A stretch of DNA of 64,000 nt from Rhodococcus sp. SGAir0479 (GTDB lineage: Bacteria; Actinomycetota; Actinomycetes; Mycobacteriales; Mycobacteriaceae). Under the pieces are notes generated by a model. That model saw nothing but the letters and a program-made list of their open reading frames with translations, was not told the origin of the DNA and searched no databases. The stretch spans positions 1,054,001-1,118,000 of the forward strand of contig NZ_CP039432.1 of the NCBI RefSeq assembly GCF_005484805.1, written 5' to 3'. Every line of letters begins with the position of its first letter. Position 1 is the stretch's first letter. The translations under genes and the position numbers were made by a program. Below are positions 47,940-60,256 of this stretch, piece after piece.

Positions 47940-49436
47940 GTGCCCGACACCCTCACCAGCGCGGCCGACGTCACGTCCGTCCGCGCCGCACTGCGCTCTC
48001 CCCGCCGCCTGACGACCGAGGCCCTCGCCGGCCTGGTGACCGCGCTGGCGCTCATCCCCGAGGTCATCTCGTTCGCGGTGATCGCCGGCGTCGATCCCAA
48101 GGTGGCGCTGTACACGTCGTGCATCATGGCGATGGCGATCGCGTTCGTGGGGGGCCGGCCGGCGATGGTGTCGGCGGCGGCCGGGGCGACCGCACTGGTG
48201 ATCGCGCCGCTGGTCTCGGCGCACGGCATCGACTACCTCATCGCCGCGGTCTGGTTGGCCGCCGCGCTACAGATCCTCTTCGCGGTGGCCGGGCTCGCGC
48301 GGCTGGTGCGGTTCATCCCCAGATCTGTGATGATCGGGTTCGTCAACGCCCTCGCCATCCTCATCTTCAGCGCCCAACTCCGGCACCTGATCGACGTTCC
48401 GTGGCTGGTCTACCCGCTGGTCGTCGCGGGCCTCGCGATGATCGTGATCGTCCCCAAACTGACCCGGGCGATTCCCGCGCCGCTCGTCGCGATCGTCGTC
48501 CTCACCGGCGCGGTGGCGCTGTTCGGTTTCGACGTGCCCGACGTCTCCGACCAGGGGGAACTCCCGTCGGGACTGCCCACGTGGATGCTCCCGGACGTGC
48601 CGCTCACGTGGGAGACGCTCACGATCATCGCGCCGTTCGCGCTCGGTCTCGCGCTCGTCGGACTCCTCGAATCGCTACTCACCGCCAAGCTCGTCGACGA
48701 CATCACCGACACGCCGTCGAACAAGACTCGGGAGGCGTGGGGGCAGGGCGTGGCGAATGCCGCGGGCGCCCTCTTCGGCGGCATGGGCGGCTGCGCCATG
48801 ATCGGCCAGACCATGATCAACGTGAAGGAAGGGCGGGCCCGCACCCGGATCTCCACCTTCCTGGCCGGCGCGTTTCTGCTGGTGCTGTGCGTGACCGTCG
48901 GGGCCGTGGTCGGAGCCGTTCCGATGGCGTCGCTGGTGGCGGTCATGCTGGTGATCGCGGTGACCACGTTCGACTGGCACAGTGTCGCACCGCGGACCCT
49001 GCGCCTGATGCCGCGCAGCGAGACGGCGGTCATGGTGGTCACCGTGGTCGGGACGCTCGCGACCCACAACCTGGCGATCGGTGTCGTACTCGGGGTGCTG
49101 ACCGCGATGGTGGCGTTCGCCCGGCGGGTGGCGCACCTTACCCGCGTCGACGTCGTCGACGAGGTCCGGGACGGCACCGCGGAGCGCACGTACCGCGTGT
49201 CCGGCGAACTGTTCTGGGCGTCGAGCAACGACCTGATCCACCGGTTCGACTACGCCGACGATCCCGACGCGGTGGTGATCGATCTGACGGAGGCCGACGT
49301 GTGGGACGCCTCCACGGTCGCGACGCTCGACGCCGTCCAGGCCAAGTACGCCGCCCGCGGCAAACGCGTGCGGGTGATCGGCCTCGACGGCGCCAGTCTG
49401 CACCGACTCGAAAAGCTGTCCGGACGCCTCGGCTGA
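47940..49436 (+). CDS. SulP-family anion transporter with STAS domain
   Basis: 498 residues from a GTG at 47940. About eleven to fourteen membrane segments include the SulP motif region ALALIPEVISFAVIAGVDPK and GGMGGCAMIGQTMINVKEGR. The C-terminal ~90 residues (YADDPDAVVIDLTEADVWDA) form a STAS regulatory domain with the conserved DLTEA. SulP proteins import sulfate, bicarbonate or dicarboxylates. The gene sits directly upstream of a sulfur-type operon with a Cys-codon leader, which makes sulfate an attractive guess but not a proven one. Confidence 0.86.
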   Translation: MPDTLTSAADVTSVRAALRSPRRLTTEALAGLVTALALIPEVISFAVIAGVDPKVALYTSCIMAMAIAFVGGRPAMVSAAAGATALVIAPLVSAHGIDYLIAAVWLAAALQILFAVAGLARLVRFIPRSVMIGFVNALAILIFSAQLRHLIDVPWLVYPLVVAGLAMIVIVPKLTRAIPAPLVAIVVLTGAVALFGFDVPDVSDQGELPSGLPTWMLPDVPLTWETLTIIAPFALGLALVGLLESLLTAKLVDDITDTPSNKTREAWGQGVANAAGALFGGMGGCAMIGQTMINVKEGRARTRISTFLAGAFLLVLCVTVGAVVGAVPMASLVAVMLVIAVTTFDWHSVAPRTLRLMPRSETAVMVVTVVGTLATHNLAIGVVLGVLTAMVAFARRVAHLTRVDVVDEVRDGTAERTYRVSGELFWASSNDLIHRFDYADDPDAVVIDLTEADVWDASTVATLDAVQAKYAARGKRVRVIGLDGASLHRLEKLSGRLG

Positions 49437-49498
49437 GGGACGGGGAGACCGTTCGTCTCACGGACGTCGCCGTTCGTCGTCGTGCGTATACGTGCGAT

Positions 49499-49528
49499 TT
49501 GAACTCTCCGCCGCGACCGCGCTAGCCT
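49499..49528 (+). promoter_or_regulatory. Promoter of the oxygenase-metQNI operon
   Basis: TTGAAC (49499-49504) and TAGCCT (49523-49528) are 18 bases apart. The start would be near 49535, giving a leader of about 250 bases before the oxygenase start at 49785. The 348-base gap 49437-49784 thus holds this promoter, a short coding leader and a hairpin next to the ribosome site. Confidence 0.55.
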
Positions 49529-49586
49529 CCCTCTCACCGGCGTCCCGAACGGGAACGCCGATCGATCTCGTCCGGGAAGGTCTCCG

Positions 49587-49658
49587 ATGCGCGGCCCTGC
49601 AGCAACCGTCGCCACGATGCTCATGCGTGGTGGTTGTTGTCGCATGCGTCGGCGCTGA
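49587..49658 (+). CDS. Cysteine-codon leader peptide (attenuator ORF)
   Basis: A 23-codon frame starts at ATG 49587 with GGGAAGG (49574-49580) six bases before it and ends at TGA 49656-49658. The last nine residues are GGCCRMRRR; the two Cys codons (49635-49640) are both TGT, the rare Cys codon at this GC content, after two GGT codons. The inverted repeat CATGCG (49622-49627) / CGCATG (49641-49646) encloses exactly these codons. Mycobacteria are known to use short Cys-rich upstream ORFs to attenuate sulfur genes. This is most likely the same device, sensing charged tRNA-Cys. Confidence 0.75.
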   Translation: MRGPAATVATMLMRGGCCRMRRR

Positions 49659-49717
49659 GACGAGAAATCCTGCGCGACGGCACGTTTCGTACCGTCCCGC
49701 CTTCCCTCGCACTGTCC

Positions 49718-49771
49718 CCCCATCGGGCACCCACTCGTCGCAGCGCTGATTCTCCGCAGGTGCCCGTGGGG
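49718..49771 (+). promoter_or_regulatory. Hairpin next to the oxygenase ribosome site
   Basis: CCCC (49718-49721) and GGGCACC (49725-49731) pair with GGTGCCC (49759-49765) and GGGG (49768-49771). The stem ends at the edge of the ribosome site GAAAGGA (49771-49777) of the gene starting at 49785, so it can hide or expose that site depending on ribosome position in the leader ORF. Confidence 0.55.
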
Positions 49772-49784
49772 AAAGGACCGTTCC

Positions 49785-50798
49785 ATGCCCGCTCAGACGC
49801 TCCCGATCATCGATCTGGAGAACCTCGACGTCGACGCACTCCGGCAGGTGACGCACGAGATCGGCTTCTTCTACCTGACCGGTCACGGCATCGATCAGCA
49901 GCTCACCGACCACCTGGTCGCGGCGGCGCGCGAGTTCTTCGCGCTGCCGGAGGCGGACAAGCTCGCGATCGAGAACAGCAACTCGCCGCACTTCCGCGGT
50001 TACACCCGGGTCGGTGGCGAGCGGACACAGGGTCACGTCGACTGGCGCGAGCAGCTCGACATCGGGCCCGAGCGCGCCGCCATCGAGCCGATCGACCCCT
50101 CCCGCCCGTGGGACGTGCTGCACGGGCCGAACCTGTGGCCCGCGGCCGTGCCGCGGCTGCGGGAGCTGGCGCTGGAGTGGTCGAGCCAGGCGCAGGACGC
50201 GGGCCTGCGGCTGATCCGCGGCTGGGCGCGGTCGCTCGGCGCGCCGGCCGACTTCTTCGATGCCGCCTTCGCCGACCCGGATCCGCTGCTCAAGATCGCG
50301 CGATACCCCGGCCACGACGGCTCCGTCACCGACCAGGGCGTCGGCAGCCACAAGGACGTCGGCGCGCTGACCTTGCTCTACCCCGAACCGGACAGCGCCG
50401 GTTTCCAGGTGGAAACGGTCGGTCCGGCAGGGGAGACCGGCTGGCTCGACGTCGCTCCGATCCCCGGGCACCTGCTGGTCAACATCGGTGAACTGCTCGA
50501 GGTCGCCACCGGCGGCTACCTCAAGGCGACCGTGCACCGCGTGCTGCCACCCGCCGCCGGCACGGACCGGGTCTCACTGCCGTTCTTCCTCAATCCCGGC
50601 TACGACCAGGCGCTGCCGACGGTGCCGCTCTCGCCCGAGCTGGCCGCCGAGGCTGCCGGTGTCGGGCCGGACCAGCACGGCGGGACGCTGCACGCGCGCT
50701 ACGGACTCAATGCCCTCAAGTCGCGCCTCCGGGCGCACCCCAACGTCACCGAGCGGTATCACCGCAACCTGCTCGACCTGCCTGCCCTGCGCGGCTGA
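49785..50798 (+). CDS. 2-oxoglutarate/Fe(II) oxygenase, isopenicillin-N-synthase-like
   Basis: 337 residues from the ATG at 49785 with AAGGA at 49773-49777. The DIOX_N-type N-terminus (LPIIDLENLDVDAL, EIGFFYLTGHGI) is followed by the jelly-roll core with the iron triad H189, D191 (GSHKDVGALTLL) and H251 (ATVHRVLPP), and the oxoglutarate-binding RVSLPFF. The substrate is unknown. It heads an operon with a methionine-type ABC importer, and the Cys leader in front implies sulfur supply, so oxidative release of sulfur from an imported compound is a reasonable hypothesis. Confidence 0.87.
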   Translation: MPAQTLPIIDLENLDVDALRQVTHEIGFFYLTGHGIDQQLTDHLVAAAREFFALPEADKLAIENSNSPHFRGYTRVGGERTQGHVDWREQLDIGPERAAIEPIDPSRPWDVLHGPNLWPAAVPRLRELALEWSSQAQDAGLRLIRGWARSLGAPADFFDAAFADPDPLLKIARYPGHDGSVTDQGVGSHKDVGALTLLYPEPDSAGFQVETVGPAGETGWLDVAPIPGHLLVNIGELLEVATGGYLKATVHRVLPPAAGTDRVSLPFFLNPGYDQALPTVPLSPELAAEAAGVGPDQHGGTLHARYGLNALKSRLRAHPNVTERYHRNLLDLPALRG

Positions 50799-50829: not shown

Positions 50830-51663
50830 ATGTTCTTGCGCCGCACTGCTGTTCTTTCTGCTGCCGCCCTGCTCTCGGTCGGATTGGCCGCCTGCTCGTC
50901 GGACGGTGACGGGGAGACGCTGGTGATCTCCGCGTCGAGCACCCCGCACGTCGAGATTCTCGAGCACATCGCCGACTCCGGTGTCCTCGGCGACGTCAAG
51001 CTCGACATCAAGCCGGTCACCGGCGAGATCGACCCCAACGAGCTGCTGGTCGCGGGCGACGTGCAGGCCAACTACTTCCAGCACGCCCCCTACCTTACGG
51101 ACTGGCAGAAGCAGAAGGGCGTGACCGATCTCGTCTCGGTGGCCGACGTCCACCTCGAGCCGATGGGCCTGTACTCGGAGAAGATCACCGCCGTCGACCA
51201 GCTCGCCGACGGGTCCACCATCGCGCTGCCCAAGGACACCACCAACTTCGCCCGCGGCCTTTACCTCCTCGAGTCGGCCGGGCTGCTCCAGATGGACAAG
51301 CCGTTCGCCGACGCCGACCTGTCGGTGGTCACGCAGGCCAACATCAAGACGAACCCCAAGAACTTGAAGTTCGTCGAGATCGAGCGTTCGCAGCTCGCCC
51401 GCAACCTCGGTGACCCGCAGATCACCGCCGCGGTCATCAACTCCAACTACGCGATCGAGGCCGGACTGGTGCCGGCGGACGACGCGCTGCTGTCGGAGAA
51501 GGTCGAGAACAACCCCTTCGCGAACCTGCTGGTCGTCCGTGCCGCGGACGAGAACGATCCCGGTGTGCAGGCGCTGGCCGAGGCGCTCGAGTCGCCGGAG
51601 ACCGCCACCTGGATCCAGGAGAACTACTCCGGCTCCGTCGTCCCGGTCCACGCGGCCAGCTGA
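50830..51663 (+). CDS. metQ: MetQ-type (NLPA) substrate-binding lipoprotein
   Basis: 277 residues from the ATG at 50830 (GGAAGGGAT upstream). The lipobox is VGLAAC with C22. The mature protein follows the NlpA pattern: LVISASSTPHVEILEHIADS, NELLVAGDVQANYFQHAPYL, ADVHLEPMGLYSEKI, and IALPKDTTNFARGLYLLESAGL. MetQ proteins bind L- or D-methionine and relatives. The stop overlaps the metN start as TGATG. The ligand may be another sulfur compound, given the oxygenase partner. Confidence 0.88.
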   Translation: MFLRRTAVLSAAALLSVGLAACSSDGDGETLVISASSTPHVEILEHIADSGVLGDVKLDIKPVTGEIDPNELLVAGDVQANYFQHAPYLTDWQKQKGVTDLVSVADVHLEPMGLYSEKITAVDQLADGSTIALPKDTTNFARGLYLLESAGLLQMDKPFADADLSVVTQANIKTNPKNLKFVEIERSQLARNLGDPQITAAVINSNYAIEAGLVPADDALLSEKVENNPFANLLVVRAADENDPGVQALAEALESPETATWIQENYSGSVVPVHAAS

Positions 51664-52697
51664 TGATCACCGTCGAGAACCTGGTCAAGACCTTCCCCGC
51701 CGCGGGCGGCGCGGGGGAGGTCTCGGCGCTGCGCGGCATCGACCTCGAGATCGCCGACGGCGAGATCTTCGGGATCGTCGGACCGTCGGGGGCCGGCAAG
51801 TCGACGCTCCTGCGGTGCCTGAATCTGCTCGAGCAGCCCACGAGCGGCCGCATCGTCCTGCGTGGCGACGACCTGTCGCAGCTCTCCGGCGCGGCGCTGC
51901 GGCAGGCCCGCCGCCGCATCGGCACCGTCTTTCAGCAGTTCAACCTGCTGCACTCGCGGACCGTGCGAGCCAACGTGGAGTTCCCGCTCGAGCTGGCCGG
52001 CCTGGACCGCCGAGAGCGCCGGGCCCGCGCCGACGAGTTGATCGCGCTCGTCGGCCTCGCCGGCAAGGAGAAGGCGTTCCCGTCGCAGCTGTCGGGCGGT
52101 CAGCAGCAGCGCGTCGGCATCGCCCGCGCGCTGGCGTCCCAGCCGGACGTGCTGCTGTGCGACGAGGCGACCAGCGCGCTCGATCCCGACACGACCGATC
52201 AGGTGCTCGACCTGCTCGCCGAGCTCAACCGCCGGATCGGCGTCACGGTCGTCCTCATCACCCACGAGCTGGGGGTGCTGCGGCGCATCTGCACATCCGC
52301 GGCCCGGATCGACGACGGCCGAATCGCCGAGAGCGGCCGGATCCTCGACCTCGTCGGTACCCCCGACTCGGTGTTGGGCGCGGCGATCGTCCCGGTCGGG
52401 GACGATCCCTCCGCGGGTGACGGCGCCGACACCGCGCTCGTGACGACCATCGGCGACGAGGCCCACGGCCCCTGGCTCGCGCAGCTGGTCCGCAAGCTCG
52501 ACGTCGACATCTCCGTCGTCGGCGGCAGCGTCGAACAGGTCGCCGGTGTCACCGTGGGACGGCTGCGGCTGCGGTTCGCCCCGGACGTGAACCGGGCCGA
52601 CGTCGAGGCGTTCGTCGCCGCGCAGCCGGGCACCACCCTGGCCTGGGGTGGCGGACCGGAAACACCCGCCGCACTGACGCAGGAGGTGACCGCATGA
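51663..52697 (+). CDS. metN: MetN-type ABC transporter ATP-binding protein
   Basis: 344 residues. Walker A GPSGAGKSTLLRCLN, signature QLSGGQQQRVGIARAL, Walker B VLLCDEATSALDPDT and ITHELGVL with the switch His are intact. The C-terminal ~90 residues (GPWLAQLVRKLDVDISVVGG onward) form the NIL/ACT-like domain that lets methionine shut down the transporter in E. coli MetNI. Overlaps with metQ (1 base) and metI (4 bases) show one operon. Confidence 0.92.
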   Translation: MITVENLVKTFPAAGGAGEVSALRGIDLEIADGEIFGIVGPSGAGKSTLLRCLNLLEQPTSGRIVLRGDDLSQLSGAALRQARRRIGTVFQQFNLLHSRTVRANVEFPLELAGLDRRERRARADELIALVGLAGKEKAFPSQLSGGQQQRVGIARALASQPDVLLCDEATSALDPDTTDQVLDLLAELNRRIGVTVVLITHELGVLRRICTSAARIDDGRIAESGRILDLVGTPDSVLGAAIVPVGDDPSAGDGADTALVTTIGDEAHGPWLAQLVRKLDVDISVVGGSVEQVAGVTVGRLRLRFAPDVNRADVEAFVAAQPGTTLAWGGGPETPAALTQEVTA

Positions 52698-53362
52698 AAA
52701 AGCTGTCCTGGCAGGACTCGCTGCCGGAGGTGTGGGAAGCGACGCTGGACACCCTCTACATGGTGGGCATCTCCTTCGTCCTCACGGTGATCGGCGGCGT
52801 GCTGCTCGGCGTGGTCCTGCACGTGACCTCGCCCAGTGGGCTGTGGCCGCAGCGAGCCGTCAACTCCGTGCTGGGCGCGATCGTCAACCTCTTCCGCTCG
52901 CTGCCGTTCCTCATCCTGATGATCGCGCTGATCGGCACGACGCGGATGATCGTCGGCACCGCGATCGGTCCGACGGCCGCGATCGTGCCGCTGACGATCG
53001 GCGCGATCCCGTTCTACGCACGCGTCGTCGAGTCGGCGCTGCGTGAGGTCCCCGTCGGCCGTGTGGAGGCGGCCCAGGCGATGGGCGCGAGCAACGGGCA
53101 GATCGTGCGGAAAGTGCTGTTGCCGGAATCTGTTTCGGCCCTGATCGCCGGTGCGACACTGACGGCCGTGCTGCTCGTCGGCTACTCCGCGATGGCCGGC
53201 GTCATCGGCGGCGGGGGACTGGGCGACTTCGCGATCGTCTACGGCTACCAGCGGTTCAACACACCGGTCCTGCTGGTCGCGGTCGTCGTGTTGATCGTCC
53301 TGGTGCAGATCCTGCAGTCCATCGGCGACGGCGCCGTGCGCGCGCTGAAGCACCGGAAGTAG
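52694..53362 (+). CDS. metI: MetI-type ABC transporter permease
   Basis: 222 residues with five membrane segments. It begins MKKLSWQDSLPEVWEATLDT, and VNLFRSLPFLILMIALIG and VEAAQAMGASNGQIVRKVLLP (the EAA loop) are typical of MetI. It forms the membrane channel with MetN. ATGA overlap with metN. A long bidirectional terminator follows. Confidence 0.92.
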   Translation: MKKLSWQDSLPEVWEATLDTLYMVGISFVLTVIGGVLLGVVLHVTSPSGLWPQRAVNSVLGAIVNLFRSLPFLILMIALIGTTRMIVGTAIGPTAAIVPLTIGAIPFYARVVESALREVPVGRVEAAQAMGASNGQIVRKVLLPESVSALIAGATLTAVLLVGYSAMAGVIGGGGLGDFAIVYGYQRFNTPVLLVAVVVLIVLVQILQSIGDGAVRALKHRK

Positions 53363-60086: not shown

Positions 60087-60205
60087 CGGTAAGGTGCTGC
60101 AACTGAAGAAACGTCTGCGGGGAAGTCCTGTGAGAATCAGGCGCGGTCCCGCCACTGTGAGGGCGATCGATCCGGTCGACCCGAAGCCAGAATGCCGCGG
60201 CGTTT
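60087..60205 (+). ncRNA. Cobalamin riboswitch
   Basis: The classic elements are in order: an AGGTGCTGC-type 5' region, GGGAAGTCCTGTGAGAATCA (60119-60139 area), GGTCCCGCCACTGTGA (60145-60160, the B12 box) and GAAGCCAGAATGCCG (60183-60197). A small hairpin (CTCGG 60220-60224 / CCGAG 60233-60237) follows and may be the expression platform in front of the ribosome site at 60242-60249. It would shut the downstream cobalamin genes when adenosylcobalamin is abundant. Boundaries are approximate. Confidence 0.92.
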
Positions 60206-60256
60206 CGCTTGGCCAAGCTCTCGGCGAGGAAACCGAGACGTGAAGGGATTCGACCG

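Follow-up and report, generated by a model that had tools for sequence, protein, structure and literature searches.

Cys-rich upstream open reading frames (uORFs) were found in mycobacteria by Shell 2015 (PMC4633059, in the sections available), and the polycysteine uORFs of these organisms, which are leaderless, have been reported to confer regulation by cysteine through translation (Canestrari 2020, as related in excerpts of PMC9031893, PMC9094748 and PMC13236596); the excerpt of PMC13236596 names this mechanism translation attenuation. In the available passages of Seliverstov 2005 (PMC1262725), Cys leader peptides are described before the cys operons of Mycobacterium and P. acnes and before cbs of B. 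longum, and no conserved RNA structures are reported before methionine operons. The same passages describe the actinobacterial LEU element before leuA, which differs from the leader studied here in its Leu codons and its fold.

Here we describe a leader in a 64-kb window (the whole stretch of DNA that was analysed), where a short Cys-codon uORF precedes an oxygenase gene and metQNI. We consider this leader to be a cysteine-responsive attenuator of the oxygenase–metQNI operon, with a probability of roughly 0.75. Like the mycobacterial polycysteine uORFs, as excerpted, it is short, has contiguous Cys codons, stands before sulfur genes and is conserved across species; like the Cys leaders of Seliverstov 2005 (PMC1262725, available passages), it has its Cys run near the stop codon and no intrinsic terminator. 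It differs from the leaderless mycobacterial uORFs, so far as the excerpts describe them, in being led by a Shine–Dalgarno sequence, in its oxygenase–metQNI target and in the conserved hairpins behind the uORF. Two of these hairpins, H2 and H3, also set it apart from the leaders of Seliverstov 2005 (PMC1262725), for which the available passages give no conserved terminator hairpins. The kind of cysteine attenuator is a known one; new are the Shine–Dalgarno-led uORF, the peptide and the target. A search of titles and abstracts, with most subscription papers outside its coverage, returned nothing on a Cys leader in Rhodococcus or on this operon under sulfur starvation.

Catalogued Cys leaders likewise precede sulfur genes in this genome, namely the NCBIfam leaders NF042933 (Ms5788A), NF042936 (Ms4527A) and NF042934 (cis_reg_atten). 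The window peptide differs from those leader peptides in lacking, by eye, their R-R-x-V-D motif. None of the NCBIfam leader models matched it (E ≤ 5), and none matched the peptides of one relative and three second-design leaders (E ≤ 10) or of two more relatives (E ≤ 1); one second-design peptide gave an unrelated match below cut-off, to TIGR04135 (16.1 versus 45 bits). Searched with NF042934, the organism's own genome yielded 11 places at E ≤ 10, three of them over the cut-off, a level reached nowhere in 14 control genomes. One leader over this cut-off, MLTRRRAVDLCRLGGCCCPCC (G000:C1:93067-93123, minus strand; L161/L177), has Ms5788A as its best relative, at a score below the cut-off of Ms5788A itself, and stands before DUF4395 and rhodanese genes. 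Another leader, of the Ms4527A type and over cut-off (G000:C1:2244547-2244603, plus strand; L180), ends CSCCCLPCGV and precedes a nitrite/sulfite reductase (NIR_SIR) gene. Two further places, L178 and L179, also exceed the NF042934 cut-off; one open reading frame behind L178 matches glycosyl hydrolase family 26, and the frame tried behind L179 has no Pfam match. Below the threshold, leader-like frames lie before an SDF symporter gene (L181) and an OsmC-like gene (L182). Together, the metQNI genes downstream and these catalogued leaders before other sulfur genes back the link to sulfur that an earlier, sequence-only reading of this DNA had proposed. A simpler genome-wide pattern, three Cys codons nine bases before TGA, was set aside as near chance overall (16 matches versus 13 in a reversed control); one of the 16 is the leader before the DUF4395 and rhodanese genes.

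Architecture of the leader and its operon

The main elements that the sequence-only reading had described are present (Table 1): the 23-codon uORF with its GGGAAGG site and adjacent TGT codons, the hairpin abutting the oxygenase Shine–Dalgarno sequence and the promoter TTGAAC-18-TAGCCT, although by our own count the promoter agrees with the sigma-70 consensus at 7/12 positions and a strict sigma-70 scan called no promoter at the leader. The TAGCCT hexamer is retained in 9/10 Prescottella-type leaders, among those listed. TGT was also rightly taken to be the rare Cys codon, as nine genes of the region use TGC 13 times and TGT 0 times. The Cys codons are clustered near the stop codon of the uORF. 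With its transcript start placed from the sequence, the uORF would have a 5′ untranslated region of about 50 bases, the candidate promoter lying about 60 bases upstream; its start is not leaderless, because a Shine–Dalgarno sequence stands six bases 5′ of the ATG. GGAAGG occurs 5′ of the uORF ATG in 15/16 leaders, the remaining one (L201) having GGAAAGG. We found 0 intrinsic terminators with a T run in 49437–49790, and a search of the 64-kb window gave no Rfam match at gathering score at the leader. The only Rfam match of the window is a cobalamin riboswitch aptamer at 60120–60234 (plus strand; 32.4 bits versus a gathering score of 31.5).

Table 1. Positions of the leader elements and operon genes in the window.
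Feature	Position	Strand	Basis or detail
Candidate promoter TTGAAC-18-TAGCCT	49499..49528	+	Read from sequence; TTGAAC 49499-49504, 18-nt spacer, TAGCCT 49523-49528
5′ hairpin H0	49538..49560	+	Folding and 14-leader alignment
uORF Shine–Dalgarno GGGAAGG	49574..49580	+	Sequence; uORF ATG at 49587
uORF, 23 codons, MRGPAATVATMLMRGGCCRMRRR	49587..49658	+	Sequence, translation, conservation
Two adjacent TGT (Cys) codons	49635..49640	+	Sequence; conserved in 27 leaders
uORF stop region GCGCTGAGACG, 5′ strand of candidate anti-sequestor (AS)	49652..49662	+	Conservation, complementarity
Hairpin H2	49672..49700	+	99.2% of cells paired, 16 leaders
C-rich, G-poor stretch, possible Rho entry	49689..49735	+	C/G 3.1
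Shine–Dalgarno-proximal hairpin H3, 13 pairs, 27-nt loop	49718..49771	+	Arms 49718-49731 / 49759-49771
Block CGTCGCAGCGC in H3 loop, 3′ strand of AS	49736..49746	+	16-leader conservation
Oxygenase Shine–Dalgarno AAAGGA	49772..49777	+	5/6 columns invariant, 16 leaders; ATG 49785
2OG-Fe(II) oxygenase gene (DIOX_N and 2OG-FeII_Oxy)	49785..50798	+	Pfam
metQ, NlpA/MetQ lipoprotein	50830..51663	+	Family searches
metN, ATPase with NIL domain	51663..52697	+	Pfam; under curated NCBIfam MetN cut-off
metI, permease	52694..53362	+	Pfam; top NCBIfam match MetI, 202.4 versus cut-off 212

It is through metQNI, identified by Pfam, that sulfur-metabolism genes lie downstream of the leader; the family searches with metQ used a form of the protein without its first 11 residues. 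The solved proteins closest to the oxygenase by sequence are 9ovh and 6jyv, neither of which indicates its substrate, and the oxygenase itself may have a role in sulfur metabolism. A link to PA4191 is possible. Directly upstream of the leader lies a gene for a SulP-family transporter with a STAS domain (47940–49436, plus strand). At two other loci (L010 and L011), about 75 bases separate the end of a SulP match from the oxygenase match, and this interval holds no leader.

Conservation of the leader among relatives

Homologues of the oxygenase were collected from named genome contigs (67 loci), from the 14 genomes of the window's genus, 12 of which gave a match at E ≤ 1e-60, and from the 401 genomes of its family, 196 of which matched. 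The 158 upstream regions compared comprise the window, the 67 named loci, 31 genus or family loci and 59 picked from the matches listed; they include duplicates between collections, and L124 was left out. In the 350 nt upstream of the gene, 48/158 loci have an open reading frame whose final 12 codons include two adjacent Cys codons, compared with 7/158 on the antisense strand of the same regions and 3.2% in dinucleotide shuffles. Once duplicates were removed, two clear peptide designs emerged. All 12 genus genomes with the oxygenase have a leader of the Prescottella type, such as MRGPAATVATTHMRGGCCCMRQR, before it, and so do Tomitella biformata and R. tukisamuensis, which gives 14 distinct leaders. 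Leaders of the second design, such as MGNTHTQTVSTRARGAVAPACCRCR and MFGKDRAQFVSTRMVGVVAPACRCCRCF, are present in 13/16 oxygenase-bearing genomes of genus g27, which is Rhodococcus in two records; it is absent from L090, L098 and L100 of that genus. Oxygenase homologues of other genera mostly have no such frame upstream, and the other, scattered matches look like chance.

The sequence-only reading had made its case depend on the Cys codons being conserved in orthologous leaders. That comparison was run, and they are: with the two designs aligned separately (14 and 13 leaders), the three Cys columns are kept in 27/27, 27/27 and 26/27 leaders, counts that are not independent because the leaders share descent. 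The only exception at the third Cys is the window itself, where TGC has become CGC; in the relatives this Cys is the next or next-but-one codon after the pair. Across the 14 Prescottella-type leaders, gaps within the uORF are of 3 or 6 bases. Codon comparison gave modest evidence of coding for this design (variable columns 9, 11 and 11; synonymous/non-synonymous changes 219/304 in frame versus 179/357 and 202/446) and suggested coding better for the second (185/309 in frame versus 117/368 and 105/336).

A covariance model built from the 14 leaders, searched against the family with strict filters, matched 16/401 genomes at E values from 1e-40 to 4e-29, including all 14 of the genus, and 16/16 of these leaders carry a uORF with Cys codons. 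Three weak matches (L203, L204 and L205; E 1.9e-4 to 0.008) were dropped, having no Cys-run uORF in the 400 bases surrounding the match. Applied to the second design, the model gave a weak match in the right place in L087 (E 0.007) and no right-place match in the other second-design loci tested. Two genus genomes gave no oxygenase match (E ≤ 1e-60); in each of them metQ–metN comes directly after the leader, and the two uORFs read MRSPATPDVTTLMRGRCCCMRWR and MRSPATPDATTLMRGRCCCMRWR. Because the leader is kept before metQ–metN where no oxygenase was matched, it serves the operon and not the oxygenase alone. In the named set of 67 loci, a Cys leader is present wherever the oxygenase is followed by metQNI (11/11). 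It is absent from L010, L011 and L015, which are close orthologues without metQNI, and from five Corynebacterium loci in which a metQ-like gene lies beside a more distant oxygenase.

Cys-run leaders of other design were found elsewhere in the actinobacteria. Two MAGs (L031 and L035) have uORFs reading MNALFCCCCCR and MNALLCCCCCR before oxygenase homologues that are 55–56% identical to that of the window, with no metQNI in 13 kb. We then searched the class with the L031 protein (394 genomes, 48 of them matching at 1e-100) and examined the best 30 loci. Both matching genomes of genus g93 carry such a leader (VSVIVSAFTCCCCRR in one and VSTNTCRCCRR in the other; L206 and L207); the other 27 of these best 30 loci, the window's own aside, have no Cys-run leader, and nine loci of genus g99, in the same family, are among those 27. 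Judged by eye, the uORFs of L031, L035, L206 and L207 are apparently leaderless. By this comparison, Cys leaders that differ in design were acquired or retained by the oxygenase gene, and we take this as the best evidence from sequence that oxygenase expression follows cysteine.

Hairpins, complementarity and computed switching

Structure was assessed on an alignment of 16 leaders, with some tests on 14. Alignment support for H0 is moderate: in 14 leaders, 73.2% of cells are paired (68/500 shuffles as high), and its covariation score is reached by 8/500 shuffles. Two pairs of H2 are changed on both sides, and its covariation score is reached by 2/500 shuffles (16 leaders). H3, which ends just 5′ of AAAGGA and has no T run, is paired in 97.6% of cells (16 leaders); it lies beyond covariation testing because 8/13 of its pairs never vary. 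The folding energy of 49534–49800 is not unusual (19/200 shuffles at least as stable), the corresponding values being 22/200 for 49715–49790 and 2/200 for 49670–49790.

A 6-bp inverted repeat that encloses the TGT codons (CATGCG 49622–49627 / CGCATG 49641–49646) had also been pointed out in the sequence-only reading. This part stands only in so far as the repeat is present and mostly pairable in relatives. The 14 leaders all permit five of the six pairs, the first pair is broken in 9/14, and the sixth is a Watson–Crick G–C only in the window, being G–U or A–U in the other 13. As a separate functional hairpin the repeat was rejected (89.3% of cells pairable, no covariation, all bases coding), and it is no independent evidence, because its bases encode conserved Met, Arg and Cys and lack covariation.

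Unlike that repeat, a second complementarity, between the region of the uORF stop codon and the loop of H3, involves post-stop and loop bases that are non-coding. In the window, the two strands of this candidate anti-sequestor are complementary at 10/11 positions. The GACGAGA that follows the uORF stop is invariant in 7/7 columns and the CGTCGCAGCGC block in 7/11, compared with 0/4 and 0/12 elsewhere in the H3 loop (16 leaders). In 10/14 leaders, at most 10/1000 loop shuffles are as complementary to the stop region; the other four, all from one subclade, show weak complementarity (51–292/1000). AS is pairable in 96.9% of cells (16 leaders). Several changes in the loop block respect it, namely G to A at the mismatched position in L048, L074 and L201, and C to T giving G–U in two and in four leaders; of the ten pairs, one cannot form in four leaders and another cannot form in one leader. 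AS shows no covariation, as no pair is altered on both sides. Complementarity to the stop region was not convincing among the 13 second-design leaders examined (lowest value 36/500 shuffles).

Folding was then computed with the ribosome at different positions, on the assumption that its footprint leaves RNA free from 12 bases past the start of the A-site codon, and with a nested-fold program, in which pseudoknots cannot be weighed. Folded from 49650 (ribosome on the second Cys codon), the window forms the stop–loop helix, and from 49670 (ribosome at the stop codon) it forms H3. For full leaders at equilibrium with the ribosome on the first Cys codon, H3 has a probability of at least 0.57 in 13/14 leaders; L006 alone has AS ahead (0.96), and the window gives AS 0.41. 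When no ribosome is present, the probability of AS is 0.98 in the window and at most 0.02 in the other 13 leaders, and the window's leader alone would then be 'on' without translation. For transcripts that stop short of the 3′ arm of H3, a ribosome placed on the second Cys codon gives AS a probability of 0.71–1.00 in 16/16 leaders; placed on the first, it gives at least 0.81 in 13/16, the values in L008, L009 and L075 then being 0.50, 0.17 and 0.24. The AS value of 0 for a ribosome at the stop codon holds by construction. The model that we favour is therefore a kinetic one, in which AS would form while the 3′ arm of H3 is yet to be transcribed.

Stalling at the Cys codons had been expected, in the sequence-only reading, to expose the oxygenase Shine–Dalgarno sequence. 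A simple accessibility calculation does not bear this out, as it gives almost no change between states. In the 14 Prescottella-type leaders, the core of this sequence is unpaired about equally with the ribosome on the first Cys codon and at the stop codon (within 0.1), except in L006 (0.68 versus 0.48), and in the 13 second-design leaders the differences run both ways. Between states the helices change in part, whereas the computed accessibility does not. Pairing between the stop region and the loop is a better candidate for the switch than exposure of the Shine–Dalgarno sequence through stalling.

Proposed attenuation by cysteine and its alternatives

In the model that we propose, ribosomes would load on the uORF at its own Shine–Dalgarno sequence. 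With charged tRNA-Cys plentiful, translation would run to the stop codon; a ribosome there would cover the stop region, which would allow H3 to form beside the oxygenase Shine–Dalgarno sequence and keep expression low. When cysteine is short, the ribosome would pause on the Cys codons, some 18–21 bases 5′ of the stop codon, and the free stop region could pair with the conserved block, destined for the H3 loop, while the 3′ arm of that hairpin is still to be transcribed; this pairing would hinder H3, and the operon would be translated. Across the relatives compared, the uORF and its Cys codons are conserved, H2 and H3 are kept, the complementarity recurs and the place before metQ–metN is retained. 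The leader very probably senses cysteine. The balance tips slightly towards control at the level of translation, and the computed folds make the pairing of the stop region with the H3 loop a tentative candidate for the switch, at somewhat less than even odds.

Control could instead act on transcription, if full translation of the uORF opened the C-rich stretch to Rho and pausing on the Cys codons thwarted it. The C/G ratio of that stretch is equalled by 0.09% of 47-nt windows on the plus strand of the 64 kb, no intrinsic terminator was found, and Rho was suggested for the cys leaders of Mycobacterium in the available passages of Seliverstov 2005 (PMC1262725). However, the best 47-nt C/G ratios of the relatives (2.0–3.8 in the 14 leaders and 1.4–3.1 in the 13) exceed those of other upstream regions just mildly, against a background median of 1.75 and a 90th percentile of 3.1, and a ribosome on the Cys codons would leave the C-rich stretch uncovered; we regard Rho attenuation as unlikely. 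The same complementarity could also be read without an anti-sequestor. As no base belongs to both AS and H3, the stop region could pair with the loop while H3 stays intact, in a pseudoknot that serves as a fixed fold or a brake. That AS and H3 are pairable in 96.9% and 97.6% of cells, respectively (16 leaders), and that H3 is retained in the equilibrium folds are consistent with this, and a leader peptide combined with a pseudoknot is known for actinobacterial leuA (PMC1262725, in the passages available). Such a pseudoknot would, however, deepen repression while ribosomes are paused on the Cys codons, the opposite of what would be expected of an operon for sulfur import, and we regard it as decidedly unlikely.

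What the leader senses, if it is a sensor at all, bears on the remaining alternatives. The downstream genes form a methionine-type importer and two inner Met columns, kept in 14/14 Prescottella-type leaders, flank the Cys run, as would suit a leader that senses methionine, or cysteine and methionine together. Yet the 13 second-design leaders retain their Cys codons with no conserved inner Met, and the Cys-run designs of L031, L035, L206 and L207 have no inner Met either; we therefore give sensing of methionine little weight. A small Cys–Arg peptide that acts in its own right, for example in metal or redox binding, would account for the conservation of the peptide inside each design. By eye, though, the designs share little except Cys and Arg near the stop codon and their position relative to the gene, and PMC9031893, as excerpted, presents the known relatives as leaders that act in cis, so that a functional peptide is very improbable.

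Our reading thus remains that of a cysteine-responsive attenuator. In its fullest form, it would combine a kinetic translational attenuator, in which the stop region pairs with the H3 loop and a ribosome positioned at the stop codon, unlike one on the Cys codons, permits the hairpin, with a 2OG-Fe(II) oxygenase family that helps to acquire sulfur and is controlled by cysteine in several lineages of actinobacteria; we hold this combination to be possible, with the odds a little against it. The leader offers a defined pair of candidate alternative helices, set beside the Cys leaders that Seliverstov 2005 describes, in the passages available, without conserved terminator hairpins. If the reading is true, cysteine attenuation would not be confined to the cys genes of mycobacteria but would also take in an importer of the methionine type and an oxygenase, and both of these would be assigned to sulfur scavenging.
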